A stretch of 42,640 nucleotides of DNA from positions 1 to 42,640 of the IMG/VR virus record IMGVR_UViG_3300027779_000054; one strand, written 5' to 3'. The position numbers and the translations under genes are program-made. The notes beneath the pieces were generated by a model. That model had not been told where the DNA came from, did not search any database, and saw only the letters and a list, made by a program, of their open reading frames with translations. Positions 1,437 to 37,277 of this stretch are shown here, one piece after another. Positions within the stretch are counted from its first letter, which is position 1; the number at the start of each line of letters is the position of its first letter. Origin of the DNA: a virus.

Positions 1437-1835
1437 TTACTGTGGATTTCCAAGTGTAGCTTCTTTTAACATTCTATTTAATTCTTCATCTGATAATTCA
1501 TCTACAGATACTTCTGTATTTGTCTGATCAACCCTAGACAACTTAGGCGATTCAAATTCTGCGAGAGACTTCGCAAGGTCTGCTGCTTGTACATAATCAT
1601 CTTCATCTAATGCTTTAACCATTAGTATACGAAGTATGTCAATAGCATTCACCGGATTCTCTTCAAAAGATTCTTTGAATCCCTTAAATTGTTTAACTGT
1701 TAACTTCAACTGCTCTCTAGCTAAGTTATTAGCTTTACGACTAGCAGCTGCCTTTAACTGATACTCTCTAGCATTTTCAGAAGTAAGTAGTGGCTTGAGA
1801 TTCTTTAAACTATTTGGATGTATATTATGAGCCAT
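1437..1835 (-). CDS. terS: Putative terminase small subunit
   Basis: A 132-aa, helix-rich, charged product. The N-terminal part (NSLKNLKPLLTSENAREYQL) resembles the start of many phage small terminase or DUF5681-type proteins. The C-terminal half (AADLAKSLAEFESPKLSRVD, then SVDELSDEELNRML) matches the usual helix, PKLS and acidic-tail layout of small terminase subunits. That subunit recognises phage DNA and hands it to the large subunit and portal. The ribosome binding site AGAGGAG lies 6 nt before the ATG. It is a lone minus-strand gene between two plus-strand blocks, with its own phage-type promoter upstream (1877-1892) and a terminator downstream. No large subunit is in the window. The family call rests on pattern recognition only. 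Confidence 0.5.
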   Translation of the reverse strand: MAHNIHPNSLKNLKPLLTSENAREYQLKAAASRKANNLAREQLKLTVKQFKGFKESFEENPVNAIDILRILMVKALDEDDYVQAADLAKSLAEFESPKLSRVDQTNTEVSVDELSDEELNRMLKEATLGNPQ

Positions 1836-7224: not shown

Positions 7225-9534
7225 ATGAAACCTTTTTATGAGGTTACAGAATACCTCATTAATAAAGTGAGGAATATAAATAGTAAAAACCCTAAAGCAA
7301 ATACTGGTGCTGTCATCCTACAGTATGATAAAAACTATGAAGATGATATGGAAAAGTTTGTAAAGTCAGCTCTACAAACTATACAAATATTATTTACAAC
7401 AAGTAGTAGTTCTAATCCTGTAGGTACAGCCAACCTAACTAACATATCATCTAAGATAGGTAGAGAAATAAGTAGGTATCTGAATAGAGAACTTACTTGG
7501 CTCAATCAAATAAGATTGGGCGATCTATTTGTTGAGGGTTTCTACCACTGTGGCTTTGTAGATATCTATTATCCAAAGACTAGAAATACTAGTTACATAG
7601 TATCTGCAACAGCTAGGTGGGTAGAACTAGCAGACATACCCGAAATGTTTTCTAGAGTAAGTCTAATACACACATCTATTACTCCTCCAAGAAGTATTAA
7701 TAGTATGATGCAGAGTATTGGATCAATACAATTCCCTGTAATAAAAGGAAGAACAGGTAAGGATTACTTAGAGTTAGATAGGCCATACATAAGGACTATA
7801 AATAAATTACAAAACTCTGGGTGGAGAATTAACAGAAGAGTACTAGAGATAATAGAAAAGAATAAAGAAGTATTCTCTAGTTCAATACCATTTGAAAATA
7901 ATGATGCTAAAGAATTAAAGCGTAGAAGCCAAGCATTAGAATGGAGTTTCATTATAGCTAAAGCTAACATACTAAAAGATGAAGATGTATTCTATCAGTA
8001 CCTCGATGCTGACTATAGAGGACGCTTGTACTACAAAGAACCATTCCTAAACTATCAAGGGTCAGACATATCTCGTGGAATGTTAAAGTTCGCAAGAGCT
8101 AAACCTATGACACAAGAAGGTTTGTTTTGGTTAGCAGTGCATACAGCATCAAGTTACAATGAAAGCTTCGGGATCAATGAAATACCAGATTGGTGTGAAA
8201 CAAACTACAAATCGTTCTTAGAAGGTGAAGGTCTAGATGATATATCAGTAGACAAAATGACACTAGAAGACAGAGTACGATGGGTTAATGAGCATATGGA
8301 TACCATTGTAGACATAGGGATAAATGGTGAGATAGATACGACAGCAGAAAGGATAGTGACATTCTTAGCTTGTTGTATTGAGTGGGCAGATTACCACAAG
8401 GCTGTAAAAGATAAAAGAATTTACATGTCTCATCTTCCTATACCTATAGATGGATCTAATAATGGATGGCAGCATCTTGGTGCAATATCTAAAGACACAC
8501 AAACAGGAGATCTTGTAGGGTTAATACCTAGCAACATACAGAAAGACTTCTATGTACAGACTGCAAAAGAACTTATCAGTCTTACAGATGATGAAAGATT
8601 AGTAAACATATTAAGTCGAATGCCTATGAAAAGTATACGTAAAGGTATAACTAAACGTGGAAGTATGACCCGTGCCTACTCAGCAGGTGCTAAGAAGATA
8701 GCTGAAAATATGTTCTTTGATTGTAAAGCTGAAGATTATCATACAGAGTATGGTATTACTCAAGATGATTGTAATAAATTTGCTAAGGTATTAATAAAAG
8801 CAATCAACAATGTATGTCCCGGTCCTCTACAGACTATGAGTTACCTTCAAGAGCTTGCTAAGTATGAACTTGGTAAGTTTAATAAGGTTAATGAAGATGG
8901 AGAGGTAGCAGGTGATGACTATAAAGAAGCTGTTAAAAGAAGATCAGAACTATTTAAAACAAAAGACATTACTGATGAAGAGATTGAAGAACTAAACACA
9001 CTTGTAAAGTTTACATCTAAATATAAATCAGTACTTGTACATGGTAATGGTTCCGATAGAATCAAATGGACTACACCATCTGGCTTTGATGTTGAGTACA
9101 CAAAGTTTAGAATGGAACGTAAGAAAGGTAGAGGTACTATTGCAGGGTTCAAGAAATCTAGTGGTGGTCACCAAGGTATTAATCATGTTGCTCAAGCAGC
9201 AACTATATACCCTGACATACAAGGATTCTTGTGTGGTATATCACCAAATGTAATACACTCACTCGATGCAAGTCACATGGCTCTAGTAGTAGATCAGTGG
9301 CATGGAGAGTTTGGTGCAGTACATGATAGCTTCTCTACCCATGCATGTGATGTCGAACATCTTCTTGGAATAACTAAGGTAGTCTTTATAGATATGTATG
9401 ATAAAGAAAACTTTTATAACTGGCTTGAAGAAGAACTAATATCTGAAGACCATGAGGGTCTAGATGTACAACAACCACAGTTAGGTAACTTAGATATCAA
9501 TGATGTCCAAGAGTCTGACTATTTCTTTTCATAG
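7225..9534 (+). CDS. T7-like single-subunit RNA polymerase
   Basis: A 769-aa polymerase, shorter than T7 gp1 (883 aa). Visible signatures are DYRGRLYY (263-270), motif A PIDGSNNGWQH (D409), motif B TKRGSMTRAYS (K477, Y485) and motif C HDSFSTHA near the C-terminus. Where T7 has R627 and G640, this protein has Lys473 and Ser486. The ribosome binding site GGAG lies before the ATG. It sits at the end of the plus-strand replication operon rather than at the genome start as in T7, so it is likely made from early transcripts and then reads the minus-strand late promoters (1877-1892 and 34522-34537). Confidence 0.96.
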   Translation: MKPFYEVTEYLINKVRNINSKNPKANTGAVILQYDKNYEDDMEKFVKSALQTIQILFTTSSSSNPVGTANLTNISSKIGREISRYLNRELTWLNQIRLGDLFVEGFYHCGFVDIYYPKTRNTSYIVSATARWVELADIPEMFSRVSLIHTSITPPRSINSMMQSIGSIQFPVIKGRTGKDYLELDRPYIRTINKLQNSGWRINRRVLEIIEKNKEVFSSSIPFENNDAKELKRRSQALEWSFIIAKANILKDEDVFYQYLDADYRGRLYYKEPFLNYQGSDISRGMLKFARAKPMTQEGLFWLAVHTASSYNESFGINEIPDWCETNYKSFLEGEGLDDISVDKMTLEDRVRWVNEHMDTIVDIGINGEIDTTAERIVTFLACCIEWADYHKAVKDKRIYMSHLPIPIDGSNNGWQHLGAISKDTQTGDLVGLIPSNIQKDFYVQTAKELISLTDDERLVNILSRMPMKSIRKGITKRGSMTRAYSAGAKKIAENMFFDCKAEDYHTEYGITQDDCNKFAKVLIKAINNVCPGPLQTMSYLQELAKYELGKFNKVNEDGEVAGDDYKEAVKRRSELFKTKDITDEEIEELNTLVKFTSKYKSVLVHGNGSDRIKWTTPSGFDVEYTKFRMERKKGRGTIAGFKKSSGGHQGINHVAQAATIYPDIQGFLCGISPNVIHSLDASHMALVVDQWHGEFGAVHDSFSTHACDVEHLLGITKVVFIDMYDKENFYNWLEEELISEDHEGLDVQQPQLGNLDINDVQESDYFFS

Positions 9535-9809: not shown

Positions 9810-9845
9810 CCCCACTAGGAATCCTTAATTGGAAACTTAGTGGGG
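9810..9845. terminator. Bidirectional rho-independent terminator
   Basis: A 10-bp stem (CCCCACTAGG / CTTAGTGGGG, one G-U pair) continues through a 2x2 internal loop into a 3-bp stem with a TTAATT loop. The plus strand continues TCTTTTTTTTT and the minus strand GTTTTTTATTTATT, giving a U tract on both sides. It separates the convergent replication (plus) and late (minus) operons. The stop codon of the minus-strand gene lies inside the T tract. Confidence 0.92.
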
Positions 9846-9854
9846 TCTTTTTTT

Positions 9855-12800
9855 TTAAATTGTGTAGTAGTTTAAACTTGTAGAAACTCTTTTACCATTC
9901 CTATCAGATATTGGATAGCCATTCTTTTCTATTTCTTTTCTTAATAATATTTTATTTTCTTCAGTCATGTTTGTAAAGTTCCTTAACCTCTCAAATGAAC
10001 TACCACCAAATAGGTAGTCTCTATACAGACGTAAGAATTGCTTTAAGAAATTAACATCTAACTCTGCAGCAGTAACTAATGAACTGTTATATATAAAATC
10101 ACGATGCTGTTCCTTTGATACATCAAAATTATAATCACCATTGTATAAGAAATTAAACAGTTTTGAAAAAGCTTTCTCTTGATCTTTCCTTATCTTAGCA
10201 TGTCTATCATTTAAAGAATCTAAAGCTAAAAAGTATTCAGACTTATGAGATGAAACTAAAGAAGATTCTTTTTTAAACTTCATATCAGAACCAGAAACTA
10301 CAGTCTCCCTTAATCCTTTAACTTTCTTTTCAAACATATTACTATCTGTGTTAAACTGTAACGTATTTAAAACTTCTTTGTCATTCAGACTATTAAAAGA
10401 AACTAAATCTACAATAAAAGCTTTCTCTCTATCAGATAATAGATCAGTTGATGGACGCTTACGAACTAAAGGAGTTGCAGCATCTTGAGAAGTAACAACT
10501 TCAGGTACTGTTATATTTAAAGAATCAATATAGTTATTGAATGCTGTAGTCATTGACGTATGCATTTGTTCAAATGGATTATAGTCTAATGCACTATCAA
10601 AGTTTCTATTTAACTCTCTAACAACTGTATCATATGAACCTATGTCAACCAATGCTGCATCAAATATAGGTAAAAAGAAAGAGTTAGATATACCTTTTGG
10701 GCTTTCCCCATGAGCCATCTTCAATCTCTCTAATGATTTACCTGACGCTGTTTTAGCAATTATATCTGCTTCAACACCATGAATTAACATAGCAACTGCC
10801 GAACTAAACTCTTTACCCCCAGAGAAACCTTCATTCTCTCCAGTTAATTCATTAATTTGATTAGGTGTTGCACTCATATCTTCAATAGTTTTATAATGAG
10901 TTACTGTATAAGTTTTACCAGCTATCGTAGTTTTCTGAGGTGCATTAGCTTCTTCATGTCCTCCTGAACTTTTTGTTGATATCATTAAATCAGTACCCGA
11001 CATAGACTTAATTGGAATAGGTGTATTAATAGCCTGACTTATCTTTGTAAAAGATCTAGCAATACTTTTATACTCTAAAACAAAATCACTAAGTATCTCA
11101 TTCAACCCTTGCATATAGTTAGAATGTATTACTGTTATAGATGGTTCTAAAAGGTCACTGTTATTTAGTCTCTCATAAGCATCTATAAACATCTCTTGCT
11201 CAGGGGTTACCCTTATAGAGCCATCTGGATTTTTTAACTCACGATCAGTAATAGCTTTTTGGTATATAGAATCTACTGTTTTTTGTACATCAGCTTTTAA
11301 TGTAAAGAATTCTACACCATAAGGAGTTTTCATAATAGAATACTTATGCATTTCCCTATCTTTAAAAACACTAAGAGCAATAGTCTTTAGAGTTTCAATG
11401 TAAGCTTCCTTACTATTACCACCTTGTACGTCTTCGATATAAGGAAGATCTTCCCATGTATCTACAGGATTACTTTGTAAGTTTTCATATAAAAGATGCT
11501 GCAGTTGATCTCGAACATCACCTCTATCAGTTAGATTTGAGACACCTTTCCTGTTAATACCTGTAAGATAACTCATATCTAGGTTACCAAGTAGGTGTGT
11601 TAAAATAGCTACACCACTTGTCTTACCATCGGTATGACTATTAAACTTACCATAGAAAGGTTTACCATCGCTTGATCTTTTCCATTTAGCATAGTCAGAG
11701 AACTCCATAAGTCCTTCAATAAATAGTAAACCATCCATACCTTTAGCAGCTATTGCTTTAATTAAATCAAGATCTTCTACTGGATCTAGTTCAACAGTTG
11801 GAAGCTTTGGAAATGTTGGTCTCTTAAATACATCACTTGCACTTGAATTATCTTTTAATATCTCTTCTCTTACTTGGTCAACATTTGTTTCCATACCTTC
11901 AGGAGTTACATTGTATGCAAGTTTTAATCTTTCTCCCCATCCTTCTAATAGATTAGAGTGTTGATCTAAAAGCCGCTCTCTTATCATTGGTAAAGCTTCA
12001 GATCCTTTAACCTTTTTCACACCCATTGCAGCAAAAGTATTTTCATATGCTTCGATCACATCATCTAACGAAGTTACATCAGTCTCTGTTAAAATCATAG
12101 CGTACATCTGTCTAAGATTTGCCTCTGCTCTATTACCTTTTCTAACTACATATACATTTGGGCTTCTTATCATAGCCCTTACTATTTTATTAGATAAGTA
12201 ATTAAAGTATAGTTCTGTAACATCTATTCTTCCAGAGTATCCTTGTCTTGCATGATTAAAATATTTAATTCCATCACTTTCCATAGCTAAAACCTTTACT
12301 GTTTCTAGTACTTCAAGGACAGCTTTATCATACTCATGAGTTTTATCATCAACAGGTTTTTCAGGTAAACCTTTTTTAACTCTACCTTTATTCTTGCTTA
12401 TCTGTTGCTTAATAGATAGTTCAATGTCTGCAACCTTAGTAGAACCAATACCTAAGATATCTAGTTTCCATAGGAGTTCAGGATTAAAAGCAACAGCCGA
12501 TACATAAGTTGCAATATAATTTCTTGAATCTGGTCTAGACATTAAGAAAGGAATAACTGTTTGCATAAATAAACTCAATCTTCTTTTATCTACAACAACA
12601 GGAACATTATTAAAATAATCAGTTGCTTCATTAGATGCTTTAGAAAATAGCTGACCTTTTGATTTACCTCTGATCTTACCAACGTCTAGAGAATTCACCA
12701 GTCTATCAACCCTAGGTCTAGATACCCTACCACCTAACATTCTTCTCCTGAACGCTGAAGTATCTGGACTGTTGATCTTACGATGTCCTTCAGGGGTTAA

Positions 12801-13964
12801 TTGAAACCTTGTTTGTACACCTTTATGACTACCTGAGAATCTTCTTACAAGATCAGGATGTGTTATTTGATATATAGTTTTTGCAAAATCCCCTATAGCA
12901 ACAGCTTCTTCCTTCACTATATCCTTTTCAATACTTTGACCTGTAGCATTCCTATAGTCTTCTATTATTTTTGTACCAAGAGCTTCACTAGATTGATTCT
13001 TAGATACCTGAGGTAATAGTTTACCACTACCCGTCTTCTCAATAGCAGTAGATGCGTCTGAGTTTATTGTACCAGCAAAATATTCTTCTGCATTGATAGA
13101 AGCTATCTGTAAAAATTGATCTCCCGGAACCAAAGAGTCTACATTAATATCCGGACCTTCAATCTTGTCTGTCTTTGGATCTAATACTTTCCCATCAGTT
13201 GTACCTTTATAAGTAAACCTTTTAATTACATGACCTAAGTCGATTGACTTCACAGCATTTAAAGAATACAAAGCAGATCTTAAAGATCCCGGATCATTTC
13301 CTTTAACTTTCATATTATCTCTGACAGTCTGAGCTATCTCTTCAGGTTTTGCATCTGCAACAGGTATAGTCTTAACCCCTTTCACTCTTGGATCAACTGA
13401 GATACTAGAAGGTGGGGTAAGTCCTGTAACTGTCGATGATTTACCAGCTAAGTTAGCAGGATTATTAACAAAATCTACCACACTATCTATTCTCTTTAAC
13501 ATCCCCTCAGATACTATTGGTGTAAATGAATCAGAGTGTCTTGTGAAAGAACCTATAGAATCTTTATCAGAATTATTATCATACTCAGTTTGATTACGTG
13601 TTAAAATATTTGCTGCATTCTCTGGACTAGTATCAACTTTAGCATACTCTTCAGCTGCTTGTTGATTAGTGACAGCTGGAAATGCCCGATTCATTAACTC
13701 ATCCATAGTCATAGCTGTTTGGGGTCCAGATCCTTCTTGAATCTCTACAGCTGGTAAAGTATCTCCCTTTGCAACAGTGTCTAAAGGTTCAGTCCCTCTA
13801 AAAGAAACATCAGGAGTACCCATCAACCGTTGAAAAGTCTTACCTGTTACGTCATTACCAGTTGCTGTTCTTGGCTTACTGTTTTGCATTAGCTTAACAA
13901 GAGGATCTATTAGAATACTATTATTAATCCCTTGACTTGCTGATGTACTGGCTTTTGCTACCAT
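9855..13964 (-). CDS. Putative N4-type virion RNA polymerase
   Basis: A 1369-aa protein and the last late gene. It contains the single-subunit RNA polymerase signatures in order: SGR (577-579) followed by IDVTELYFNYLSNKIVRAMI, like the T7 GR-FN-N region; motif A HTDGKTSGVAI (D779), like T7 VDGSCSGIQ; motif B Rx3Kx7YG (R870, K874, M878, Y882, G883); and motif C PIFDAAL (D1102, with Phe in place of His). A-to-B spacing is 95 residues (94 in T7). About 570 residues precede the first motif. In N4 the related gp50 is packaged and ejected to transcribe early genes. Here the location beside the ejection proteins and far from the T7-like polymerase suggests the same. SD AAGGAG precedes the ATG. Confidence 0.75.
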   Translation of the reverse strand: MVAKASTSASQGINNSILIDPLVKLMQNSKPRTATGNDVTGKTFQRLMGTPDVSFRGTEPLDTVAKGDTLPAVEIQEGSGPQTAMTMDELMNRAFPAVTNQQAAEEYAKVDTSPENAANILTRNQTEYDNNSDKDSIGSFTRHSDSFTPIVSEGMLKRIDSVVDFVNNPANLAGKSSTVTGLTPPSSISVDPRVKGVKTIPVADAKPEEIAQTVRDNMKVKGNDPGSLRSALYSLNAVKSIDLGHVIKRFTYKGTTDGKVLDPKTDKIEGPDINVDSLVPGDQFLQIASINAEEYFAGTINSDASTAIEKTGSGKLLPQVSKNQSSEALGTKIIEDYRNATGQSIEKDIVKEEAVAIGDFAKTIYQITHPDLVRRFSGSHKGVQTRFQLTPEGHRKINSPDTSAFRRRMLGGRVSRPRVDRLVNSLDVGKIRGKSKGQLFSKASNEATDYFNNVPVVVDKRRLSLFMQTVIPFLMSRPDSRNYIATYVSAVAFNPELLWKLDILGIGSTKVADIELSIKQQISKNKGRVKKGLPEKPVDDKTHEYDKAVLEVLETVKVLAMESDGIKYFNHARQGYSGRIDVTELYFNYLSNKIVRAMIRSPNVYVVRKGNRAEANLRQMYAMILTETDVTSLDDVIEAYENTFAAMGVKKVKGSEALPMIRERLLDQHSNLLEGWGERLKLAYNVTPEGMETNVDQVREEILKDNSSASDVFKRPTFPKLPTVELDPVEDLDLIKAIAAKGMDGLLFIEGLMEFSDYAKWKRSSDGKPFYGKFNSHTDGKTSGVAILTHLLGNLDMSYLTGINRKGVSNLTDRGDVRDQLQHLLYENLQSNPVDTWEDLPYIEDVQGGNSKEAYIETLKTIALSVFKDREMHKYSIMKTPYGVEFFTLKADVQKTVDSIYQKAITDRELKNPDGSIRVTPEQEMFIDAYERLNNSDLLEPSITVIHSNYMQGLNEILSDFVLEYKSIARSFTKISQAINTPIPIKSMSGTDLMISTKSSGGHEEANAPQKTTIAGKTYTVTHYKTIEDMSATPNQINELTGENEGFSGGKEFSSAVAMLIHGVEADIIAKTASGKSLERLKMAHGESPKGISNSFFLPIFDAALVDIGSYDTVVRELNRNFDSALDYNPFEQMHTSMTTAFNNYIDSLNITVPEVVTSQDAATPLVRKRPSTDLLSDREKAFIVDLVSFNSLNDKEVLNTLQFNTDSNMFEKKVKGLRETVVSGSDMKFKKESSLVSSHKSEYFLALDSLNDRHAKIRKDQEKAFSKLFNFLYNGDYNFDVSKEQHRDFIYNSSLVTAAELDVNFLKQFLRLYRDYLFGGSSFERLRNFTNMTEENKILLRKEIEKNGYPISDRNGKRVSTSLNYYTI

Positions 13965-13974
13965 GATTTACTCC

Positions 13975-16900
13975 TTAAAATTTTACATTCCCTATAACTT
14001 TCGCCACTGCATCTGATGCACTATCAGTCATATGATTCACTGACCCTACTATAGGAGCAGATTGAAACCATTTCTTAGTTCCCTTTTTAATATCACCTGA
14101 TACAATATCTGATGTACCAGTTATCATTCTCTTTAAGTTACTAATGCCCGGAGATTCAGAAGCAACTGAACTTAGTACCCAGTTACCTATTGTAGTATCC
14201 CCACGTTTACCTTGAGGGTATAAAGGCATGAACTGATCTATAACACGTTCATAAGTACCAAGTAATCCAGATGATCTTACTCCACGTTGAATCCACTGTG
14301 CGTTATCTAAGTATTCATTCTCACCATCTTCATATTTAATCCAATCCTTTAAAGCTTGTGAAGCAAATCCTAACATGATCATACTTCCTACAGTAATAAA
14401 TGTACTGTATCTCATACTTGGGGACCCTCTAACCACTCCTTCATCCCACATTTTCTTTAGGTGGTTAGCTGTAAACGTAGCCATGAACCCTTGGAACTGT
14501 GTGAATAAAGCAAACCTAGGATCTTGATAGATCAATGGTCTGTTCATAGCCATAGGTAATGCAACAGCTTCATTAACAAAATTAAAGACTGCTTCTCTTA
14601 ACTGATCATTCCTAAACTCTAATTCGTCAGGAGTTAAGTAGTATAAATCATTAGAGTTATCGATAAGAATATCACTTGTCTTATTTACTTCTGCATTCCC
14701 TGCAATAATAGCTTTTTGTGCATCAACAATAGCTCGTTGTGATGACTTAGGATTAGCAATTATTTTATACTGTTCACGATTTCTTGCTTCTATGTTCAGT
14801 TGATATCTCATATAGAAATCTACAAATGTTTCAACATCCATACCTAGATTACGTAGATACTCTTTAGCTTGAGTCACTTCTTTAGTAATGATATCAATTT
14901 CTTTTGTATCTAAACTACTAAAAGATCTACCATCTGCAGTAACAATCTCATCATTAACTGAAAGTGTTATGTCTGCAGCATTAGGCTTACCCACTTCTAA
15001 ATTATCTTGTTGAACTAAGTAAGAGTAATCAGCTATAGTTTTTAATTTATCATTAATAAAATCAGTAGCGATTGCAGCTCTAACAGCACGAGTGTAGTTT
15101 GTCCAACCTTGAAGACCATTCCATTTAAAGAACCCCTTCATTATATTCTGCTGCCAAACATTAATCTCAGTAACACCTGTTGTTGTTGCAGCACCTAAAG
15201 AATAATCACCATACCCTAGTAGATTAATAATGCGTTGACCATTACTTAAGTACATAGCAGTTTCAAGATGTGGTGTGGCTCCAGTTGCCTTATTAGCTAC
15301 ATTAGCAATCTCTCCCATGCCTCTCTTTAATAAAGTTGCAAGCTCTACACCTTGTGCTCTTAACACAGTATCAATTTGTTCAGCTCTAAATGACCTACCT
15401 GTTAAAGCAAGCTCAACGAAAGAGGTTATAGCAGATAAAGATAATCCAGCTAAGGTAGTAACTAATAAATAACTTCTTGTAATTGACTCTACTTTTTTAC
15501 CATCCTTTGTTTTAGCCCGTTTATAATTTCCTGACTCAGCGTTAAAAATATTATGTAATTCAAAAGCCATCCTATCAACTTCTAGTTTAGCTTTATCTTT
15601 CCCATAAGCTGGTAAGAAATTCTTCTCTATCTCATTTAATTTTTGAGATATTATCCTAGCATCCTTACCTAGGAATTTAGCATGTGATAGATATCGAGCT
15701 TGACTTTTTGCATATGTCTCTACGTTTTTAAATATATTCTGTTCTAAGAAAGGTTTGAATTCTGGTTTCTCAGACATCCTAAGAGATCTACTTCGCTTAT
15801 ATCCGGGGCTAATTTCACCTTGGGTTACAGAGAAAGCTTCATCTAAATCAAGAATACCTTTAGTAACTACTGCTTCATACATTTCATTTGCTTCAGTTTC
15901 AGTCTTACCATTAGTCATAAGAGCTTTAATAAATTCTGGTTTAAGTTTCCTAACTATATTTGCATCCACTTCTTTACGCTTTAAGAAATAATTCTTTTCT
16001 TTTTCTATAGGTTTAAAGTTTGGATCAGGTATACCATTAACTGTAGCATCTTTTAGAGCTTGATCATTTTGTTTCTCAAGACTTTTATCTGATGCTAAGT
16101 TCATTCTCTCTATAGTTAAAACAATAAAAGCTTTATTAGGATTTGTATCAGGTATTAAGTCTGGATTAAAATCACCATTCTTATCTACAGCAGACCACCA
16201 AATTTTAGATAACTCTTCACTAGCTTTATTCATATTCTTTTGAGTTCTTTTTTGGTTCTTACCTAACATAATCATATAGTATTCTACAGGACTAATAGTT
16301 ATAGATAACATCTTATTCATTTGAGCAATCTTATCAGACTCCCAAGCGGAACCATTAAAAACTTTACTAGTTCCAAGCCCTACTATATCTCTTAATTCAA
16401 CAGCTGCATCACCACCTGCATCAAGTCTGTCTTTATTAAATGTGTAGTTAACACTACTCTTAAACATTTTAGGGAACATCTTTAATGATTCAACTACTCT
16501 ATTAGTACCACCCTTAGCTTCTTGAAGATGACTATGATCGTCAGCTCTTTTAACTATACTTCTAAACCCAAGCTCTTCAGCTGCTTGATCATAAGCATCT
16601 TGATATTCTTCCTTAGTGAAAGTATCTTTTGATAAGGTGTTAGTAAATGTTGGTGGTGCTCCAGAGCTTACTGGCTTTTTCGTCCAATCATAATCTGATT
16701 TAGTATTTAGTGATTGAAATTTACCTGTCTTTGGATTACGCTGTACTGTAGCTCCACCCTTCTTCTTATTTTTCTTTTCTAATATTTCCCAAGCCCTAGT
16801 CTCAATCTTATTAGTTTCTTCTTTTACTTTTTCACTAGCAAAAGATGCATTTGATTCATTAGTTGGGAGAGTTCCTACTCCCCATTTCTTTTTATATTTT

Positions 16901-18540
16901 TCAGCAAATTGATTTGACCAACCCACTTCAGTACCATCCGAAGCTGTCTTACCAAAGGCAACATCAGCCCATGCAACATGGTTACTAACAGCACTTGGTG
17001 TAGAGAATGCCATACCTAATGCGCCACCTGTCACAGCAGCTTGTATCACTCTTCTATTTAATTCTTCCATATCAAATGGTCTATCAGAACCATGTGTAGC
17101 AGCTAAATAATTTGCAACTTCTTGTCCTGTTTCAGTTAATGACTCAGCACCTCCACCTGCAGTAAGTCTCATACCATACATTTTAAAAAGATTTTTAGCA
17201 GCTATTTGTTTCTTAGCTATCTTAGATGCATCACCAACAAACGCTGCCATCTCCCTCTTAGATGCCTGAGCTACTTGAGCTTCAGCAATATTTCTTCTAA
17301 TTGCAGTTGGTATCTTAGCATCTTGTTTTTTAATTAACGCTTCTACTGCTTCATCAATTAACTGTTTTGGCATAACTCCTTTTCTAAAGATAGCATGTAA
17401 ACCTAATCTATCTAGTGTTGCCTGAACAACACCTGAAAGTAGAGCAGCACTAGTACTTTTCTCCCCCTCCATTTCGTTATAAGTATTACCAGCAAATATT
17501 GCAGCAGGTGCAGTAAGACCAAAAGCAACACCACCAATAGTTCCTAATACAGGAGTTGCAATGTTTCCAAGTACAAGACCACCAACTGTAGCAGCCATAT
17601 ATGGAATTGATATTGCACCGTTATTAGTTAACCATCTAATACCTGACCAGAAACCTTCAATATCTCTGAAGTCTGTTAAGGTTGTACCATACTCATCTAG
17701 TTTAGCTCTATATCTTGAGACACCTTCTTCACCTATGTCAGCTAATGTCTCTAGGTCTGCACCTTCACCAATAGCTTCAAGGAAACCAGCACCTCCTTCC
17801 AACACTCCATACCACCCTTGTGCAAAGGAATCTTTAAGAGGATGTAAAGACTCATTGGTTAGAGTACGATCTCTTGATCTTATATTAACTGTAGATTGTT
17901 GATAGAAATCTTCAAAACCTGCTTCATTAGCAGCAGCTAACTCAGCTTCTGTTTCTGCTGTCTTCCTTAAACCTAGAGAGTACTTACCATCTCTAAGTTC
18001 AGCTTCAATAATATCAGAACGAGCTTGATCCCACTCATCTTCAATAGGTCTATTAGGATTATTAAGTCTATCTAGTACACCCATACCAGAGATAACAGTA
18101 TCTAAATTCGAAGAGTATGCTCCGACATTCATTACTCCACCTTCTAAAACTTTTTGTCTGAATGATTCTCCTGCATCGTTAACAAGGTTAGCAAGGATAC
18201 GATTATAAACATCTTTCTGTGGTTTACCATTAGCATCTAACACAGGTACAAGGTTAGTGTACCCAGTATCAGCTGCTAGTTTAGAAAGTATTCCAACAGC
18301 TGCTAGACCACCGGGAGTACCTAACTTATGTGTACCAGCATCTTTACCCTCCATAATAACTTTTTGTATTTCAGGGGTATCAAAACCTGCTAGCCTATAT
18401 CTTACACCATCCTTATCTAGTGTGTCACCGTCTACCCAATAAGGTGCAGTTGTTGTAATGGTTCCTTGATCATCATCACTTAACTTTTCCTCTCCCAATG
18501 TGGGGGCTGTCATTAAATTGATTTGATTAATCCACTCCAT
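13975..18540 (-). CDS. Giant internal virion protein with N-terminal staphylococcal nuclease domain
   Basis: A 1521-aa protein, probably ejected into the host like T7 gp16. Residues 36-142 form an SNase (thermonuclease) domain: VDGDT (D37, D39), YRLAGFDTPE (R49, D54, E57) and DVYNR (R114). These correspond to S. aureus D19, D21, R35, D40, E43 and R87, so the active site is complete. A long hydrophobic, Gly/Ala-rich stretch at about 308-352 and shorter ones near 1021-1045 and 1381-1400 could insert into the host membrane. The C-terminal QDPRFALFTQFQGFMATFTA region is of a kind recurrent in podovirus internal proteins. It lies between the lysozyme protein and the vRNAP-like protein. SD AAGGAG precedes the ATG. 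Confidence 0.8.
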   Translation of the reverse strand: MEWINQINLMTAPTLGEEKLSDDDQGTITTTAPYWVDGDTLDKDGVRYRLAGFDTPEIQKVIMEGKDAGTHKLGTPGGLAAVGILSKLAADTGYTNLVPVLDANGKPQKDVYNRILANLVNDAGESFRQKVLEGGVMNVGAYSSNLDTVISGMGVLDRLNNPNRPIEDEWDQARSDIIEAELRDGKYSLGLRKTAETEAELAAANEAGFEDFYQQSTVNIRSRDRTLTNESLHPLKDSFAQGWYGVLEGGAGFLEAIGEGADLETLADIGEEGVSRYRAKLDEYGTTLTDFRDIEGFWSGIRWLTNNGAISIPYMAATVGGLVLGNIATPVLGTIGGVAFGLTAPAAIFAGNTYNEMEGEKSTSAALLSGVVQATLDRLGLHAIFRKGVMPKQLIDEAVEALIKKQDAKIPTAIRRNIAEAQVAQASKREMAAFVGDASKIAKKQIAAKNLFKMYGMRLTAGGGAESLTETGQEVANYLAATHGSDRPFDMEELNRRVIQAAVTGGALGMAFSTPSAVSNHVAWADVAFGKTASDGTEVGWSNQFAEKYKKKWGVGTLPTNESNASFASEKVKEETNKIETRAWEILEKKNKKKGGATVQRNPKTGKFQSLNTKSDYDWTKKPVSSGAPPTFTNTLSKDTFTKEEYQDAYDQAAEELGFRSIVKRADDHSHLQEAKGGTNRVVESLKMFPKMFKSSVNYTFNKDRLDAGGDAAVELRDIVGLGTSKVFNGSAWESDKIAQMNKMLSITISPVEYYMIMLGKNQKRTQKNMNKASEELSKIWWSAVDKNGDFNPDLIPDTNPNKAFIVLTIERMNLASDKSLEKQNDQALKDATVNGIPDPNFKPIEKEKNYFLKRKEVDANIVRKLKPEFIKALMTNGKTETEANEMYEAVVTKGILDLDEAFSVTQGEISPGYKRSRSLRMSEKPEFKPFLEQNIFKNVETYAKSQARYLSHAKFLGKDARIISQKLNEIEKNFLPAYGKDKAKLEVDRMAFELHNIFNAESGNYKRAKTKDGKKVESITRSYLLVTTLAGLSLSAITSFVELALTGRSFRAEQIDTVLRAQGVELATLLKRGMGEIANVANKATGATPHLETAMYLSNGQRIINLLGYGDYSLGAATTTGVTEINVWQQNIMKGFFKWNGLQGWTNYTRAVRAAIATDFINDKLKTIADYSYLVQQDNLEVGKPNAADITLSVNDEIVTADGRSFSSLDTKEIDIITKEVTQAKEYLRNLGMDVETFVDFYMRYQLNIEARNREQYKIIANPKSSQRAIVDAQKAIIAGNAEVNKTSDILIDNSNDLYYLTPDELEFRNDQLREAVFNFVNEAVALPMAMNRPLIYQDPRFALFTQFQGFMATFTANHLKKMWDEGVVRGSPSMRYSTFITVGSMIMLGFASQALKDWIKYEDGENEYLDNAQWIQRGVRSSGLLGTYERVIDQFMPLYPQGKRGDTTIGNWVLSSVASESPGISNLKRMITGTSDIVSGDIKKGTKKWFQSAPIVGSVNHMTDSASDAVAKVIGNVKF

Positions 18541-18560: not shown

Positions 18561-21500
18561 TTAATTAGTTATTTCTGCAGCACGAGCAGCAAAAATACTT
18601 GCTTCTTGTGTCTTCCATAGTAAGAACAATAAGAACTCACTGTAGCCAGCTGTTCCAGCCTGTCCCGTTTTATCATTATGAAATTGTTTAACTGTTTTTG
18701 CTAGCTCTGCTGTAAGACCTTTCTTTTTAAGATCATCTGGAATAGTGTATACATCATTATCACTTTCGTATGCACCAGTTTCACCTTTGTTTACAAAGCT
18801 TTTCTTCCATTCAGGCCAAGAGACAGCTCCTGATGTATCCTCTGGTAACACTGACATTAATTTAGTAGAGAATTCAACAAGGTCTGCACCTCTGTTCGCA
18901 TCTTCAAATACAAAATCACCATTTGGTTTTTTAGTATCTCTAAGGGCAGTCATCACAGCTGTTATATTAACAGGGTCATCGTACTTAGTCCTTTTCTTGG
19001 ATGTTCCGGGTTCTATTACAAATGCATCTGAACTCCCAATTCTGATCTGAATAAATGCTGAATCCATAAACTCCGCATCAGGTCCAAATATATTAAATAT
19101 AGTCTGTTTGTTTTTATGTGCTGCAGCATTAGCCAAAGCCATTTCTGCAATTTTCATAGTTGTATCTTTATCTAAACCATGTGTTAATGCATAGTTAGTT
19201 AAGTGTTGAGCAGCTGCACCAGAATTATAATGTCCAAATACAGACTGCATCTTATCTGTTTTCTTACCCTTCTTATCTTTAGCAACTTCCATATACTGAG
19301 GTGTTTCCAAAAAGCTAGTAATACGTTTTTCAAAATCATCATACAGTTTATCACTCTTAGCTATATATAGATCACTCCCCGGTACAAGACTATGATCTTG
19401 AACAAAGATATCTGGGTTTGTTATATCTACAGGCTGACCGTTTGGTAGTAGCCATCCTGTCTCTTTATTTTCTCCCTTACCTTTTGAGTATCCTTTTAGC
19501 ATTAACCTTTGAGGTAATCCTAATTTCTTTGCAGTTGCTCTAGTAAGATAAGTAAGTTGAGTTTCTTTTGTTTGCATATATGGAGAGCCACCTTTTAACA
19601 TTAAGTCAGATGTCTTACCAGTTACTCTATAGAGTTCTAAAGATGCCTCTGTGTAATTGCCAACGCTTCTAAGTTTTTTAATATGAGCTAGACGTTTATC
19701 TTTTGCTGCACCAGCAGCTATATCATTTAGATAAATTTTACCAGCAAAACCCATTGCTTGATTAGGTGACATACCTGTAAGTCTACCAGCACAATATAGT
19801 ATAGCAGCTCTAGCTAAAGATTTAGGATCAAACAATTCACCCCAAGCTTCTTGCAAAGCTGACTTACCTTGTTCAATAAATCCTTGAGGAATTTCTTTAG
19901 CTTTTGTAGAGTTACATAATGCTAAGGCTTTATCTTCTTTTATCTTTTGAGCTTCTTCATATTTCTTTTTATCTTCTTGAGTAAACTCTGCACCTAAGTG
20001 TGTACCAGTAGCTGTATTAAGAGCTGCCTCATTAGCTGCTTTTGTTACAGCTGTTACAGTTCCAACTGAGTCGTTATTAATATTGATTTTATCTTTTATA
20101 GTTCCATCATCATCACCTTTATAAATATCAGAATTATTACTGATAGCTGTAACGCTTTGACCTAATGCATCTATTGTATTATCCATTGCTTTTAACATAG
20201 CTGGATCATTAGTTCTTTTTCTTCGTTCTAATAACTCTGATATTTCTTTTGTAGTCCCAGCATCAAGTCTTGCCTTTATCGATCTACTTTTTTCCTGATG
20301 TGAAAGTATCTTAACATGGTTATCATCTATTCTTTTTTGAAATCTTTTAAGATCATAAGGTGTTAGAGTTCCATCTGCATTACCTTTAGTAATTTTATTA
20401 AGTATCTCAGCATTTTCTTTTTCTAACTTAATAACTTTTTCACTGTGACCTTCTATGGCATTTTGGTGACTAGCTTTAGACATCCTTTTATACATATTTG
20501 AAAACATTTCCCAATCTACTTTTTTAAATGCACCAACTGTATCATCATTTTCATTAGCTAGTTCATCAGCGTCTTTTGCTTTCTTACTATTTAACCAGTT
20601 AGCTATAGATCCATTAGGTCCAAACCACCCTTGACTATCCTCTGGTCCTTTAGCTACTTCAGATATTACTTTATCTATTGAGTTGTTGTTATCATCTTTT
20701 GAAGTTACATCATCATCACCACCAAAGACTGAATCCCATCCTTTCTTAGCTTGTTGCGTACCATAACCCGGATCTCCCCACTTTAATTCAGGAGCCTCTT
20801 GTATTACAGGGACCTCTAAATCTTTTGTTGCTGAGTCCTGTATTACAGGCCATGTTATTTCTTCCCTCATTACTGGTGGTACGTAAGTGCCAGTATTAAA
20901 TTCATCAGAGTCCATACCTTCGCCAACAGGCTGTAGTTGATCTCCTCCCCCATACTGTTCTTCTGCTTTTCTAAAAGTCTCTTTAGCTGAAGGGGAAACA
21001 TAAGAAGGTTCAGGGATAGTAAAGCCTGTTTGATTAAACCGATCTCCTTCCATTAAATCAGCATTGACATTAGGAGGTGTGCCCCATTGTTCTTCTCTTT
21101 CTCTAAACTCTTCTTTACGTTCAGGGGAAATGTATTTCTGCTTTGGTTCCCAATTAAATCTATTAAATTCATCAGGGTCCATTGGTGCATCATCTTTTGG
21201 AATTGGTGGCTCTTGATCTCTGAATGCTTTGTTCTTCATTCCCTGTATCATTTGATTGTTTAAGGTTTCTGCATCTGTACTAGATGAAACTGGAGGAGTA
21301 CCCCATTGTTCTTCTTTCCTTTGAACACCTTGTGTGTACCCTGTAGGATACTCTTCATCGTCATCGAATGGATTAAAAGAATCTATTAAACCAGAAACCC
21401 AATCACCCCAACTAGAACCAGAACCTAGGTAACTTACCTTGCCACCTTTACTAAAATTATTCATTCCTTCTTCCTCTTTTGGGATTGGATCAGCAATCAC

Positions 21501-22298
21501 ACCATCACCTCTTGGATCAGACGTTGGCCCAATTAGATTTCGTTGTATTGCACTTGCTAAATAGTTAGCTCTTTTGGGTGTTCCTATTTTAGGTTTAGCC
21601 CAATTTGAACTAAAGACTTCAAAGACAGCTTTCTTATAATCACCATCATTAAAACCTTTAATCATTTCTTTAAACTTTTTTTGCTTACCTTTTCCCATTT
21701 GAAATGCTTGATGTGTTAATGCACCTTGTACTTCTTCAGGTAATATATCAAAGTTATTAATATTACTTCTTGCATCATCCATAGCAATTCTTGTATCTTC
21801 TTTAAAAAGATTTTCTATTTCGTTATGAGTATATAATTCTTCACCCACTCTCTTTGCATATTCCATAGGTAGCTTGTGACCAATACCAATATGAGGTACA
21901 CCTCTAACCATATATACTTTAGTTCTATACTCTTCGAAATCCCTTAATTCTTTTATCCATTTAGGGTTTTCTCCTTTTGGGTCTGGATGTGGACGAGGTA
22001 TTAAAGAAGTTTGCATACCATTACTTGATGATACTAAAGATCTTGCCACTCCACCTTCAGCATAAGCATTACTAGGAGGTGGTACTGTAGGTATAGGCTC
22101 AGTAGAACCCTGAGGTATTGTACCACCCTGTGATTTCTGTACCACTCTACCTCTGTCATTCATTGCCTGTATCTCAGAAGAAAACATACGAGCAGCCTCA
22201 GCATTCATAACGAATTCTCCGGGGGTTAGCCAAGCAGGTACTGTATCAGACCCCTCAGGTTTACCGGGGTGTCTACGTGATGGAAGGGGTTTATTCAT
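18561..22298 (-). CDS. Giant internal virion protein with GH24 lysozyme-like domain
   Basis: A 1245-aa protein. Residues 18-32 hold DTVPAWLTPGEFVMN, a motif frequent in phage tape-measure and internal proteins. Residues about 112-255 resemble T4-type (GH24) lysozyme: catalytic Glu122 (FEEYR), then Y129 and GVPHIGIGH (133-141). At the T4 Asp20 and Thr26 positions it has Val131 and His136. Three degenerate repeats (REEQWGTPP-like plus MDPDEFN-like) occur at about 327-476, followed by long coiled-coil or charged regions. In place of T7 gp16's transglycosylase it would open the wall during DNA ejection. SD AGGAGAAG precedes the ATG. Confidence 0.78.
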   Translation of the reverse strand: MNKPLPSRRHPGKPEGSDTVPAWLTPGEFVMNAEAARMFSSEIQAMNDRGRVVQKSQGGTIPQGSTEPIPTVPPPSNAYAEGGVARSLVSSSNGMQTSLIPRPHPDPKGENPKWIKELRDFEEYRTKVYMVRGVPHIGIGHKLPMEYAKRVGEELYTHNEIENLFKEDTRIAMDDARSNINNFDILPEEVQGALTHQAFQMGKGKQKKFKEMIKGFNDGDYKKAVFEVFSSNWAKPKIGTPKRANYLASAIQRNLIGPTSDPRGDGVIADPIPKEEEGMNNFSKGGKVSYLGSGSSWGDWVSGLIDSFNPFDDDEEYPTGYTQGVQRKEEQWGTPPVSSSTDAETLNNQMIQGMKNKAFRDQEPPIPKDDAPMDPDEFNRFNWEPKQKYISPERKEEFREREEQWGTPPNVNADLMEGDRFNQTGFTIPEPSYVSPSAKETFRKAEEQYGGGDQLQPVGEGMDSDEFNTGTYVPPVMREEITWPVIQDSATKDLEVPVIQEAPELKWGDPGYGTQQAKKGWDSVFGGDDDVTSKDDNNNSIDKVISEVAKGPEDSQGWFGPNGSIANWLNSKKAKDADELANENDDTVGAFKKVDWEMFSNMYKRMSKASHQNAIEGHSEKVIKLEKENAEILNKITKGNADGTLTPYDLKRFQKRIDDNHVKILSHQEKSRSIKARLDAGTTKEISELLERRKRTNDPAMLKAMDNTIDALGQSVTAISNNSDIYKGDDDGTIKDKININNDSVGTVTAVTKAANEAALNTATGTHLGAEFTQEDKKKYEEAQKIKEDKALALCNSTKAKEIPQGFIEQGKSALQEAWGELFDPKSLARAAILYCAGRLTGMSPNQAMGFAGKIYLNDIAAGAAKDKRLAHIKKLRSVGNYTEASLELYRVTGKTSDLMLKGGSPYMQTKETQLTYLTRATAKKLGLPQRLMLKGYSKGKGENKETGWLLPNGQPVDITNPDIFVQDHSLVPGSDLYIAKSDKLYDDFEKRITSFLETPQYMEVAKDKKGKKTDKMQSVFGHYNSGAAAQHLTNYALTHGLDKDTTMKIAEMALANAAAHKNKQTIFNIFGPDAEFMDSAFIQIRIGSSDAFVIEPGTSKKRTKYDDPVNITAVMTALRDTKKPNGDFVFEDANRGADLVEFSTKLMSVLPEDTSGAVSWPEWKKSFVNKGETGAYESDNDVYTIPDDLKKKGLTAELAKTVKQFHNDKTGQAGTAGYSEFLLFLLWKTQEASIFAARAAEITN

Positions 22299-24899: not shown

Positions 24900-24928
24900 T
24901 TGTATTCCTTAATTAATTTGTGTATCAT
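24896..24928 (-). CDS. Minicistron MIHKLIKEYK linking adhesin and GNAT-like genes
   Basis: A 10-codon ORF has an ATG that overlaps the stop of the 301-aa protein (ATGA) and a TGA that overlaps the ATG of the 133-aa protein (ATGA). It contains the ribosome binding site AAGGA for the latter. The same arrangement with MIYKLIN occurs at 37212-37250. It is either a translation-coupling leader or the fossil start of a duplicated gene. Confidence 0.4.
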   Translation of the reverse strand: MIHKLIKEYK

Positions 24929-24955
24929 GGTTCTGTTATCCTAAATTGTCCTGAG
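24924..24955. repeat. 32-nt exact repeat, copy B, at the adhesin 3' end
   Basis: All 32 bases match 37246-37277. The repeat spans the last codons of the adhesin gene (FRITEP), its stop and the overlapping minicistron start. Because it extends into the minicistron ATG, the duplication covered the gene junction and not only the protein domain. Confidence 0.9.
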
Positions 24956-25830
24956 TGAAGATAGTTTGATTCTCCACGATCTATTCCTACAGCGGCATTA
25001 GCAGCAGTGTTTACAACTGATACTACTGCACAACCTGATCTACTTGTTCCACCTTGACCTTGTAAATCACCCATTGATTGATCAGTTAATGTTTGCTTGG
25101 CACTACTTCCAATACCAGAAGCATTACCTGATGCCCCATATTGTATGACTACATCTGAAGTAGTATGTGCCGCAATTGTTTGATTACTTAACGCAGACGC
25201 ACTAGTGCCGGGATTAGAAATACCAACGTGAGTAACATTTGAGTTTGAAAGTGGTGCAGCAGGTCTATATAATTGAAAAGTAATAACATTACCTTCACCA
25301 CCAGTGTTAAATCCTTGTGCCCCAGAATAAGAAGCATCAGAGCCAGTAAGAACTTTATAGGATAAACAATAAACTGGGCGGTGTGTAGTAGTAACAACAC
25401 CTTGCTTACCTCCATAATCTACAGAAGTTTGGTAAGTAACACCAAGTCTACTGTCAATAGCAATCATTGCTCCACTAGAATTTAAAGTGGGATGTTGAGA
25501 TACAGAAACACTTGAGTTTGCTCTGGTTTGTGATTGCATACAAAGAAGTATGTCACCCGATTGAGGGTCAAACGTACCTGTTGTATTAATATTGGTTGTA
25601 TTTGTAAAAGTTCCAGTGAATCCAACACCATTTGATCCACCTTCTGTTTTTGTCCAAGTAGCTCTTAAGTATATTTGAAATGGTAAAACTACTTTAGTAT
25701 AAACTTGTCTAACAGTTCCACCTTGATTCACAAATATTTTTGTTGCTTCTCTAACAGTGCTTCCATCTTTAACAAATACTTTAGTTGCTTCTCTAACAGT
25801 ACTGCCATCTTTAACAAATGTCTTAGGCAT
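24925..25830 (-). CDS. Small adhesin-like virion protein, copy B
   Basis: A 301-aa protein. Residues 1-45 are three tandem 14-residue units (FVKDGSTVREATK-like), a recurrent attachment module of marine phage virion proteins. Residues about 55-301 form a beta-rich domain closely related to copy A (37247-38122): shared GTFDPQ.GDIL, SQTRANSSV, YGGKQG.VTTTHRP, SYKVLTGSD, GFN.GGEGN and the C-terminus SGQFRITEP. It sits directly after the 1486-aa fibre gene (12 nt). It is likely a fibre-associated receptor-binding or decoration protein; that function is inferred. Confidence 0.7.
   Translation of the reverse strand: MPKTFVKDGSTVREATKVFVKDGSTVREATKIFVNQGGTVRQVYTKVVLPFQIYLRATWTKTEGGSNGVGFTGTFTNTTNINTTGTFDPQSGDILLCMQSQTRANSSVSVSQHPTLNSSGAMIAIDSRLGVTYQTSVDYGGKQGVVTTTHRPVYCLSYKVLTGSDASYSGAQGFNTGGEGNVITFQLYRPAAPLSNSNVTHVGISNPGTSASALSNQTIAAHTTSDVVIQYGASGNASGIGSSAKQTLTDQSMGDLQGQGGTSRSGCAVVSVVNTAANAAVGIDRGESNYLHSGQFRITEP
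25700..25825. repeat. Three tandem 42-nt repeats encoding adhesin N-terminus
   Basis: Units lie at 25784-25825, 25742-25783 and 25700-25741. The first two differ at only a few positions; the third is divergent. They encode KTFVKDGSTVREAT, KVFVKDGSTVREAT and KIFVNQGGTVRQVY. The copy number of this N-terminal anchor could vary between relatives. Confidence 0.85.
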
Positions 25831-32712: not shown

Positions 32713-34476
32713 TCAAGCACATTCCTTTTGTCCGGTGAGTGGATCAATAAAGCAAGCCATGTACGCTTCCTCCTCATCGCTACTCTCCTCTGTAAAGATT
32801 TTAGTCTTGATCTTGTCCTTCTTTTCTTCTTCCACGGGCGCATTGAAGATTCCAAATCTTTTCCCTGCCGCTCTGAATGTCGTACATCCTTTCGCTCCAC
32901 CGTTGAAGGCATCCATATAGACCTGTTTGAACTCTTCATACGTTACGCTGTCCCCTACATTACACGTTTTACTACAAGCTGAATCAACATAGTTTTGAGC
33001 CAGTAGTAATACTGACAAGTGTTCATCTACAGTAATTTCATTTGCCGTTCGTCCTTTAACTCCTTGTGAGTAAGCATAGTCCTCAACTCTTTCAACGATT
33101 GGTCCGTCAAAAGTTTGGATGGTACGGTCATAGTAATGTGAAAATACTGGTTCGATTCCTCCACTGACGTTATTCGCCACCAAACTGATCGTACCTGTTG
33201 GAGCAATCGAGGTAAGGTGTGAGTTCCTAATACCATGTTTACGTATCTCCTTTTTAACTGAAGCAGGTAAAGACCTGACAAAATTACTTTTCAAATACTT
33301 TTCTCTATACATAGGGAATGAACCCTTCTCTTCAGCTAACTTAGCAGAAGCTAAATATGTATTATCTCTTAGACATGCAAACACTTTCTCTGCCCATACT
33401 AAAAACTTCTCAGATCCATATGGGTATCCAAGCATTTCTCCAGCATTGGCTAAACCTGTTAGTCCTAACCCCATCCGTCGTTTATTCTTTGCTTCATCTG
33501 CTTGTGGCTTTAATGGATATATTGTACGGTCTATTACATTATCCATTGCTCTTACTACTGCAGGTATATCTTCTTTAAATTGTGTAAAGTTAAAAGTGTA
33601 TGGCTCTCCACTGTGTATTTTAACTAAATACTTTGTAAGATTAAATGAACCAAGTAGACATGCACCATGAGGTGGTAGTGGTTGTTCACCACAAGGATTT
33701 GTTGCTTTTATTTCTTCACAATAATAAAGATTATTCATCTCTTGTATTCTATCAATAAACAGAACTCCGGGTTCTGCCCAGTCCCATGTAGATGACATAA
33801 TAATTTCCCAGATCTCAGAAGCACTTTGCTTACCTCTAGGTACACCATCAAACATTAATTCATACTCTTCATCTTCTTTTAATGCTAACATAAAATCATC
33901 AGTAATACCTACACTGATATTAAAACCAGTGAGCTTATCAGAATTACGTTTAGACATAAGGAAGTCTTTAATATCCGGATGGTCCACCCGTAGAACGCCC
34001 ATCTGCGCCCCTCGTCTATGTCCAGAACTCGCAATGGTTTGGCAAATAGAATCAAAGATACCCATAAAAGAAACGGGGCCAGACGATTTGGAATCAAGGG
34101 ATTTAATAAGATCCCCCTTTGGACGCAGTTGTGAAAAATCATAACCGATACCTCCTCCTCTTCTCATTGTCTCTGCAGCCTCTGCTGCTCTCTTCATTAT
34201 GTTACTCATAGAATCTTCTATAGTACCAGAGACAAAGCAGTTGTAGGCAGTAGTGATCCGTCTAGACCCCATAGCATTCTGTACCCTACCAGCAGGTAGG
34301 AATCTCATATTACCTAATATATCCTGAAGCTCATACTTATGTTCAATAGTATCATGTAACGCACCAGCAATTCTTCTAATCTTATCATCAAACTCTTCAC
34401 CTTCTTGACGATATTTCATCTTGTCAATCTCATTAGAGATAGTCATTGTTGGTGGTTCATAATATACATTGTTCAT
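32713..34476 (-). CDS. nrdJ: Class II (adenosylcobalamin-dependent) ribonucleotide reductase
   Basis: A 587-aa enzyme that reduces ribonucleotides to deoxyribonucleotides for phage DNA synthesis. The radical and redox cysteines are present: C80 (TTAYNCFVSG), C262 in NPCGE with E264, and C273, with the 262-273 spacing of class II enzymes. APTGTISLV (425-433) and a C-terminal pair (C575, C586), probably the thioredoxin-reducible shuttle, follow. No radical-generating small subunit (class I) or glycyl-radical motif (class III) is seen, so the radical should come from host cobalamin. It is the first gene after promoter copy 2, and SD AGAGGA precedes the ATG. Expressing an RNR with late genes is unusual. 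Confidence 0.95.
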   Translation of the reverse strand: MNNVYYEPPTMTISNEIDKMKYRQEGEEFDDKIRRIAGALHDTIEHKYELQDILGNMRFLPAGRVQNAMGSRRITTAYNCFVSGTIEDSMSNIMKRAAEAAETMRRGGGIGYDFSQLRPKGDLIKSLDSKSSGPVSFMGIFDSICQTIASSGHRRGAQMGVLRVDHPDIKDFLMSKRNSDKLTGFNISVGITDDFMLALKEDEEYELMFDGVPRGKQSASEIWEIIMSSTWDWAEPGVLFIDRIQEMNNLYYCEEIKATNPCGEQPLPPHGACLLGSFNLTKYLVKIHSGEPYTFNFTQFKEDIPAVVRAMDNVIDRTIYPLKPQADEAKNKRRMGLGLTGLANAGEMLGYPYGSEKFLVWAEKVFACLRDNTYLASAKLAEEKGSFPMYREKYLKSNFVRSLPASVKKEIRKHGIRNSHLTSIAPTGTISLVANNVSGGIEPVFSHYYDRTIQTFDGPIVERVEDYAYSQGVKGRTANEITVDEHLSVLLLAQNYVDSACSKTCNVGDSVTYEEFKQVYMDAFNGGAKGCTTFRAAGKRFGIFNAPVEEEKKDKIKTKIFTEESSDEEEAYMACFIDPLTGQKECA

Positions 34477-37215: not shown

Positions 37216-37250
37216 GGTGCTATTCTCCTATTTATTAATTTATAGATCAT
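37212..37250 (-). CDS. Minicistron MIYKLINRRIAP linking adhesin and GNAT-like genes
   Basis: A 12-codon ORF begins within the stop of the adhesin gene (ATGA) and ends within the start of the GNAT-like gene (ATGA). Its first 21 nt match the start of that downstream gene at 19 positions, and its peptide MIYKLIN is identical to that gene's first seven residues. It also carries AGGAG for the next gene. It is likely a leftover start from a local duplication that now provides coupling. Confidence 0.45.
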   Translation of the reverse strand: MIYKLINRRIAP

Positions 37251-37277
37251 GGTTCTGTTATCCTAAATTGTCCTGAG
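37246..37277. repeat. 32-nt exact repeat, copy A, at the adhesin 3' end
   Basis: Identical to 24924-24955. It covers the last codons, the stop and the overlapping minicistron start. It ties the two fibre modules together at the nucleotide level and could still serve as a site for homologous recombination between them (about 12.3 kb apart). Confidence 0.9.

Follow-up and report, generated by a model that had tools for sequence, protein, structure and literature searches.

A compact homologue of the N4 virion RNA polymerase encoded beside a T7-like RNA polymerase in a CRP-7-type phage

The IMG/VR record IMGVR_UViG_3300027779_000054 is a stretch of marine phage DNA of 42,640 nucleotides (nt) which was analysed over its whole length and is referred to here as the window; all coordinates are window positions. 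On its minus strand it encodes a cysteine-free protein of 1369 amino acids (aa) that begins with an ATG start (9855..13964) and that is, judged from its sequence, a single-subunit RNA polymerase (ssRNAP) homologous to the gp50-type polymerases of bacteriophage N4 and its relatives in the Schitoviridae. The protein is likely to be a compact virion RNA polymerase (vRNAP) of the N4 gp50 lineage. Convergent with its gene lies that of a second RNA polymerase (RNAP), a T7-like single chain of 769 aa with nine cysteines (7225..9534, plus strand), which had been recognised in a preliminary description of this DNA and matches T7 RNAP in BLAST with E=1e-35. The same description placed the 1369-aa protein among the ssRNAPs and linked it to N4 gp50, an assignment that is borne out by profile-profile comparison, structure search, motif conservation, the absence of cysteine and the position of the gene in the late module.

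The ssRNAP signatures that had been claimed for the open reading frame (ORF) are all present in order and at the residues named, and all lie on the minus strand. GYSGR (residues 575-579; 12228..12242) is the counterpart of TxxGR in N4 and DxRGR in T7 and is followed by FNYLSNKIVR, which corresponds to YNPQSAKLVR in N4. Gly replaces the Thr of the TxxGR motif while GR is kept; the Gly of GR is itself absent in two homologues (L042 and L044). Motif A is TDGKTSG (778-784; 11613..11633) with D779 in the position of D559 in N4 (ADGVTNG) and D537 in T7 (FDGSCSG). Motif B follows the Rx3Kx7YG pattern exactly with the sequence REMHKYSIMKTPYG (870-883; 11316..11357), in which K874, M878, Y882 and G883 are found and whose Arg, Lys and Tyr correspond to R666, K670 and Y678 in N4 and to R627, K631 and Y639 in T7. 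The spacing between motifs A and B was measured as 95 residues, close to the 94 of T7 as had been claimed, and compares with 111 in N4. Motif C is PIFDAA (1099-1104; 10653..10670) with D1102 matching D951 of N4 (KIFDGM) and D812 of T7 (LIHDSF). The preliminary description had remarked on Phe in place of the usual His before this Asp; the residue is indeed there (F1101), but it is no oddity since N4 gp50 has FD too. A fifth ssRNAP block that was missing from the earlier list, IHGVEAD (1061-1067; 10764..10784), is the counterpart of HSQDG in T7 and IGTGDG in N4 and reads QSxDG in relatives. Finally, N1119 (10608..10610), located 17 residues after the motif C Asp, is an invariant Asn which corresponds to N968, invariant in N4-type vRNAPs and absent from T7-type RNAPs. 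An exact Rx3Kx7YG arises in about 1% of shuffles of the 1369-aa protein, while the ordered set of GR, DG and Rx3Kx7YG was obtained in none of 5000.

Taken as a single sequence, the protein retrieves neither a Pfam family nor a phage record, and nothing meaningful by sequence in the PDB; its match to phrog_414 (RNA polymerase) is weak (E=0.13) and extends over motifs A and B. Relatives were gathered through the neighbouring T7-like RNAP, after which the adjacent convergent ORF was read. All loci with enough sequence beside the T7-like RNAP have a leftward ORF in this place, of about 1200-1370 aa if complete, and at eight of them (L017, L008, L012, L009, L018, L019, L042 and L044) it resembles the window protein, with identities from about 59% down to 20%. 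Among the nine homologues made up of these eight and the window protein, 35 of the 1697 alignment columns are invariant, including D779, G780, G784, K874, G883, E885, D1102, D1107 and N1119. The invariance of the catalytic Asp, Lys and Asp is hard to explain otherwise and makes catalysis in the window clade likely. Y882 is present in eight of the nine; the ninth (L012:12619-16677) has EAFGKE, with Phe in place of the motif B Tyr, and Phe is also found here in the vRNAP of Pseudomonas phage Pa2. In T7 RNAP the Y639F exchange makes the enzyme less selective for ribonucleotides over deoxyribonucleotides. The ratio of non-synonymous to synonymous substitution rates (dN/dS) is 0.13-0.37 within the window clade and 0.09-0.37 over all pairs tested, indicating purifying selection. 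No relative was found in a search of 84,980 bacterial and archaeal genomes.

At the level of profiles the relationship to N4 becomes apparent. A profile of the nine homologous cores aligns with the cores of 14 gp50-type vRNAPs from the Schitoviridae over 568 columns (hhalign, 99%, E=3.9e-18), with GR, motif A, motif B, the (Q)SxDG block and motif C all in register. The match of the same profile to T7-type RNAPs is weaker (E=2.4e-9); for scale, N4 and T7 match each other in this comparison with E=8.7e-9, and unrelated large phage proteins used as controls give E values of 0.23-0.40 against the window profile. Several traits are shared with N4 and not with T7, namely the Phe before the motif C Asp, DGxTxG without the QH of T7, N(P/Y)Q..K.VR after GR and the Asn at +17. 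Although the window protein has the catalytic residues of T7 RNAP and of the resident RNAP at 7225, and the predicted ssRNAP fold in common with both, it differs from the T7-type enzymes of the Autographiviridae in having GYSGR for DxRGR, FDA for the HDS of motif C and no QH after motif A, in lacking cysteine and in being encoded late. In a tree of 270 columns, built without an outgroup, the window clade, the N4-type and the T7-type polymerases form three separate groups, and the T7-like RNAP of the phage itself falls inside the T7-type clade.

The predicted structure agrees with this assignment. AlphaFold was run on residues 190-1369 with the nine sequences and gave a model with a predicted local distance difference test score (pLDDT) of 65.5 and a predicted template modelling score (pTM) of 0.63, most core blocks lying between 70 and 90. 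The preliminary description had regarded a predicted structure without the ssRNAP fold as evidence against its claim, and the model in fact matches ssRNAPs: the fifty PDB matches listed by Foldseek are all of this kind and comprise T7 RNAP, mitochondrial RNAP, N4 mini-vRNAP and the RNAP domain of N4 gp50. The E values for T7 RNAP, 2po4, 3c3l and 9pnq range from 4e-10 to 9e-9 at a probability of 1.00, with T7 RNAP (1cez) at 4e-10 and N4 mini-vRNAP (2po4/3c3l) at 3-4e-9; mitochondrial RNAP is also matched at a probability of 1.00. Against viral models, T7-like RNAPs and schitovirus vRNAPs are mixed among the matches. The TM-scores are modest (0.3-0.5) on a model of moderate confidence, which thus supports the ssRNAP fold and not its exact geometry.

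The position of the gene and the composition of its product both resemble those of N4 gp50. The gene is the last of the late operon, directly after those of two other large ejection-type proteins of 1521 and 1245 aa, and this adjacency holds in relatives where the stretch is present. In N4, too, the leftward late genes end with gp50, which follows gp51 and gp52 and abuts rightward genes. Cysteine is absent from all 31 family sequences listed (29 distinct), from N4 gp50, gp51 and gp52 and from 13 other schitovirus cores; the neighbouring 1521-aa protein also has none, while the resident T7-like RNAP has nine and T7 RNAP has 12. As cysteine is lacking here just as it is in the neighbour and in the three N4 proteins, passage through the periplasm is plausible. 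The purifying selection on the gene in all pairs compared also speaks for a virion protein. It is proposed that the vRNAP homologue would be made late, packed into new particles and, in company with the other ejection proteins, delivered by way of the tail and the periplasm to the next cell, where it would transcribe the first rightward genes including that of the T7-like RNAP at 7225, which would then take over middle or late transcription. It would work without the large N-terminal and C-terminal domains of gp50, with channel and membrane functions provided by the ejection proteins encoded next to it.

The preliminary description saw in the pairing of a packaged polymerase with a T7-like one a combination of the N4 and T7 strategies. 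There are indeed two separate ssRNAP genes; however, N4 itself already runs two ssRNAPs, first the vRNAP and then the two-chain RNAPII (PMC12633501). The plan may therefore be less a merger of strategies than an N4-like two-enzyme scheme in which a T7-like enzyme of one chain takes the second place. The resident single-chain RNAP is much closer to T7 RNAP than to N4 gp16, and the two chains of RNAPII in the Schitoviridae (gp15 and gp16) are replaced here by one.

Several observations weigh against the interpretation as an N4-type virion polymerase. Packaging and injection are read from gene position and composition, and early transcription is likewise proposed. Proteins of the gp50 type are giants of 2842-3820 aa in reference genomes (PMC10654107), N4 gp50 having about 3500 aa, whereas a chain of 1369 aa is too short to hold the large domains at the two termini; on account of this length the protein is filed as a compact variant of the gp50 lineage and not as a standard gp50. 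The unrooted tree sets the window clade apart from both the N4-type and the T7-type groups without placing it nearer to either. No conserved N4-type hairpin promoters were found in the window or its relatives, the early end of the record possibly being missing; the same scan recovers the hairpins just upstream of N4 gp1, gp2 and gp15. The ATCGCTTCGCGAT hairpin at window position 1420 was considered and is not found in relatives. A different hairpin is seen upstream of the T7-like RNAP in two relatives, with the sequence GGAGCC-TTC-GGCTCC in L042 and GGGGCC-TTC-GGCCCC in L055; the changes are paired and the hairpin is followed in both by the same CTTACGGAAACT. This UUCG-type hairpin resembles a terminator but could instead have a regulatory function.

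A further point on the same side comes from gp33 of the cultured Roseobacter RCA phage CRP-7 (MK613349), which is annotated as a hypothetical protein and is the positional counterpart of the 1369-aa protein. It is similar in size class and has no cysteine, but it shows no direct BLAST similarity to the window protein, and the two are linked at the profile level through an intermediate clade. This clade is a second CRP-7-like set (L020, L023, L029, L035 and kin, alignment A4) which matches the window profile (90.5%, E=1.3e-6) and is in turn matched by CRP-7 gp33 and its close kin (94%, E=1.3e-7). In the intermediate set the motif A Asp, the motif B Lys and Tyr and the motif C Asp are invariant at 15-19% identity. 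In the gp33 sub-clade, on the other hand, the motif B Lys is replaced by Arg and an Asp is missing at the distance normal for motif A, so that gp33, with its motif A Asp out of register, is perhaps inactive. An AlphaFold model of a close gp33-like relative has a pLDDT of 47.7, and its leading matches are mitochondrial RNAPs at a non-significant E value of about 0.03. The CRP-7-like group may include both active polymerases and proteins that keep the ejection role alone.

These altered motifs favour an alternative in which the window protein, too, is a former virion polymerase that now serves solely as a structural ejection protein, with a job like that of T7 gp16 and no RNA synthesis. The strong constraint on the gp33 group (dN/dS 0.09-0.10) is as expected if a non-catalytic job is kept there. 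For the window protein this explanation is nevertheless unlikely, as its own clade and the second, distant CRP-7-like clade both keep the catalytic Asp, Lys and Asp without exception. It is more improbable still that the protein is an active RNA polymerase which is made late and works unpackaged in the producing cell. The location of the gene within the late operon would suit such an enzyme, its presence in virions being inferred, but the lack of cysteine that it shares with the 1521-aa neighbour and with N4 gp50, gp51 and gp52 is in keeping with a route across the periplasm, and the cytoplasmic resident T7-like RNAP has its nine cysteines. That the protein arose by duplication of the resident T7-like RNAP and relocation to the late operon has very little to recommend it apart from membership of the same superfamily: the T7-type clade contains the resident RNAPs and not the late proteins, and the profile similarity is far stronger to the N4 vRNAP. 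As the resident enzyme groups with T7, neither gene is a recent copy of the other. Coincidental motif matches in a structural protein unrelated to polymerases, which the missing Pfam match and the poor phrog_414 score of the single sequence might have suggested, are refuted by the conservation, profile-profile and structure results and scarcely deserve consideration.

The surroundings of the gene place the phage in a known group. The layout of the window is that of CRP-7, in which the T7-like RNAP gp30 is likewise followed by convergent gp33, gp34 and gp35. The genes for DNA polymerase, exonuclease, primase-helicase and T7-like RNAP lie in a rightward arm, which meets a leftward late arm ending in three very large proteins, the last of which is the 1369-aa protein. 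CRP-7 gp24, gp28, gp29, gp30, gp34, gp37, gp38, gp43 and gp48 all match the window in tblastn with their order kept. By these common replication genes, their order and the convergent late arm at the end, the phage is a member of the CRP-7-type group, and its CRP-7-like replication genes set it apart from the Schitoviridae. Between the two arms lies a GC-rich inverted repeat flanked by runs of A and T (9810..9845), read from the sequence, which is probably a two-way terminator. The 1521-aa ejection-type protein (13975..18540, minus strand) is a homologue of CRP-7 gp34, and the 1245-aa protein (18561..22298, minus strand) carries a lysozyme-like domain at residues 113-252 approximately, which matches the internal virion lysozyme motif of phrog_2083 (E=2.1e-9). 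The DNA 5' of the RNAP gene measures 14.8 kb in CRP-7 and 7.2 kb in the window, and no counterparts of the capsid, portal and terminase proteins of CRP-7 were found in the window by tblastn; because of this short early end and these missing matches, the record is probably partial, with some of the early end missing along with the genes for capsid, portal and terminase.

Other features of the window were noted in passing. A 132-aa ORF of no clear family (1437-1835, minus strand) lies within the rightward early arm, and the DNA around it is 80-87% identical in three relatives (L007, L012 and L017). Two late genes 12 kb apart (24925-25830 and 37247-38122, minus strand), with products of 301 and 291 aa, are 78% identical over stretches of 78-106 nt and are preceded by similar repeats, which makes them look like a gene duplication. 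A ribonucleotide reductase gene (32713-34476, minus strand) is located within the late structural arm, and such genes occur in the late arm of CRP-7 too. Near the end of the record, a tail-fibre-like protein of 1494 aa (38124-42608, minus strand) has a C-terminal Peptidase_S74 chaperone domain, and its gene contains six copies of a 64-nt repeat.

The N4-type vRNAP has been described as particular to the Schitoviridae and is defined by its giant size (PMC12633501, PMC7650795), while a Pseudoalteromonas phage outside this family is said to have the vRNAP hallmark (PMC11654794). When IMG/VR was surveyed with a profile of the N4 vRNAP, all proteins below 2500 aa were dropped (PMC10654107), a cutoff by which the present family would have been hidden. 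The publication on CRP-7 mentions the T7-like RNAP only (PMC6918029), and in the literature searched neither a compact vRNAP nor the gene family described here was found to have been reported. Two other kinds of proposed vRNAP invite comparison. The tail-tape-fused vRNAP of Thermus phage P23-45 and the vRNAPs of crAss-like phages are also proposed or shown to enter with the DNA, but they have a two-barrel fold of the cellular type and not the T7/N4 fold (PMC10770324). The putative vRNAP of StenR_269 and large late proteins of the Zobellviridae resemble the window protein in being large, cysteine-free and encoded in a late cluster; unlike here, the proposal is based on size, composition and helix content alone (PMC10747016). 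Two of the large late Zobellviridae proteins, compared as single sequences, gave no match to the window profile.

A vRNAP of about 1300 aa without the outer domains would separate the parts of gp50 needed for polymerase work from those needed for ejection, and a compact enzyme would ease the study of how a polymerase passes through a narrow tail. CRP-7 provides a cultured relative that makes virion proteomics feasible now. More tentatively, and with considerable doubt, it can be suggested that a widespread group of marine podoviruses infects largely on its own polymerases, using first a compact injected vRNAP of the N4 type and then a T7-like RNAP, and that the injected enzyme ranges from intact in the window clade to altered in CRP-7 gp33, forming a natural gradation between a virion polymerase and a simple ejection protein. 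If true, this gradation may point to the origin of other large ejection proteins of podoviruses.

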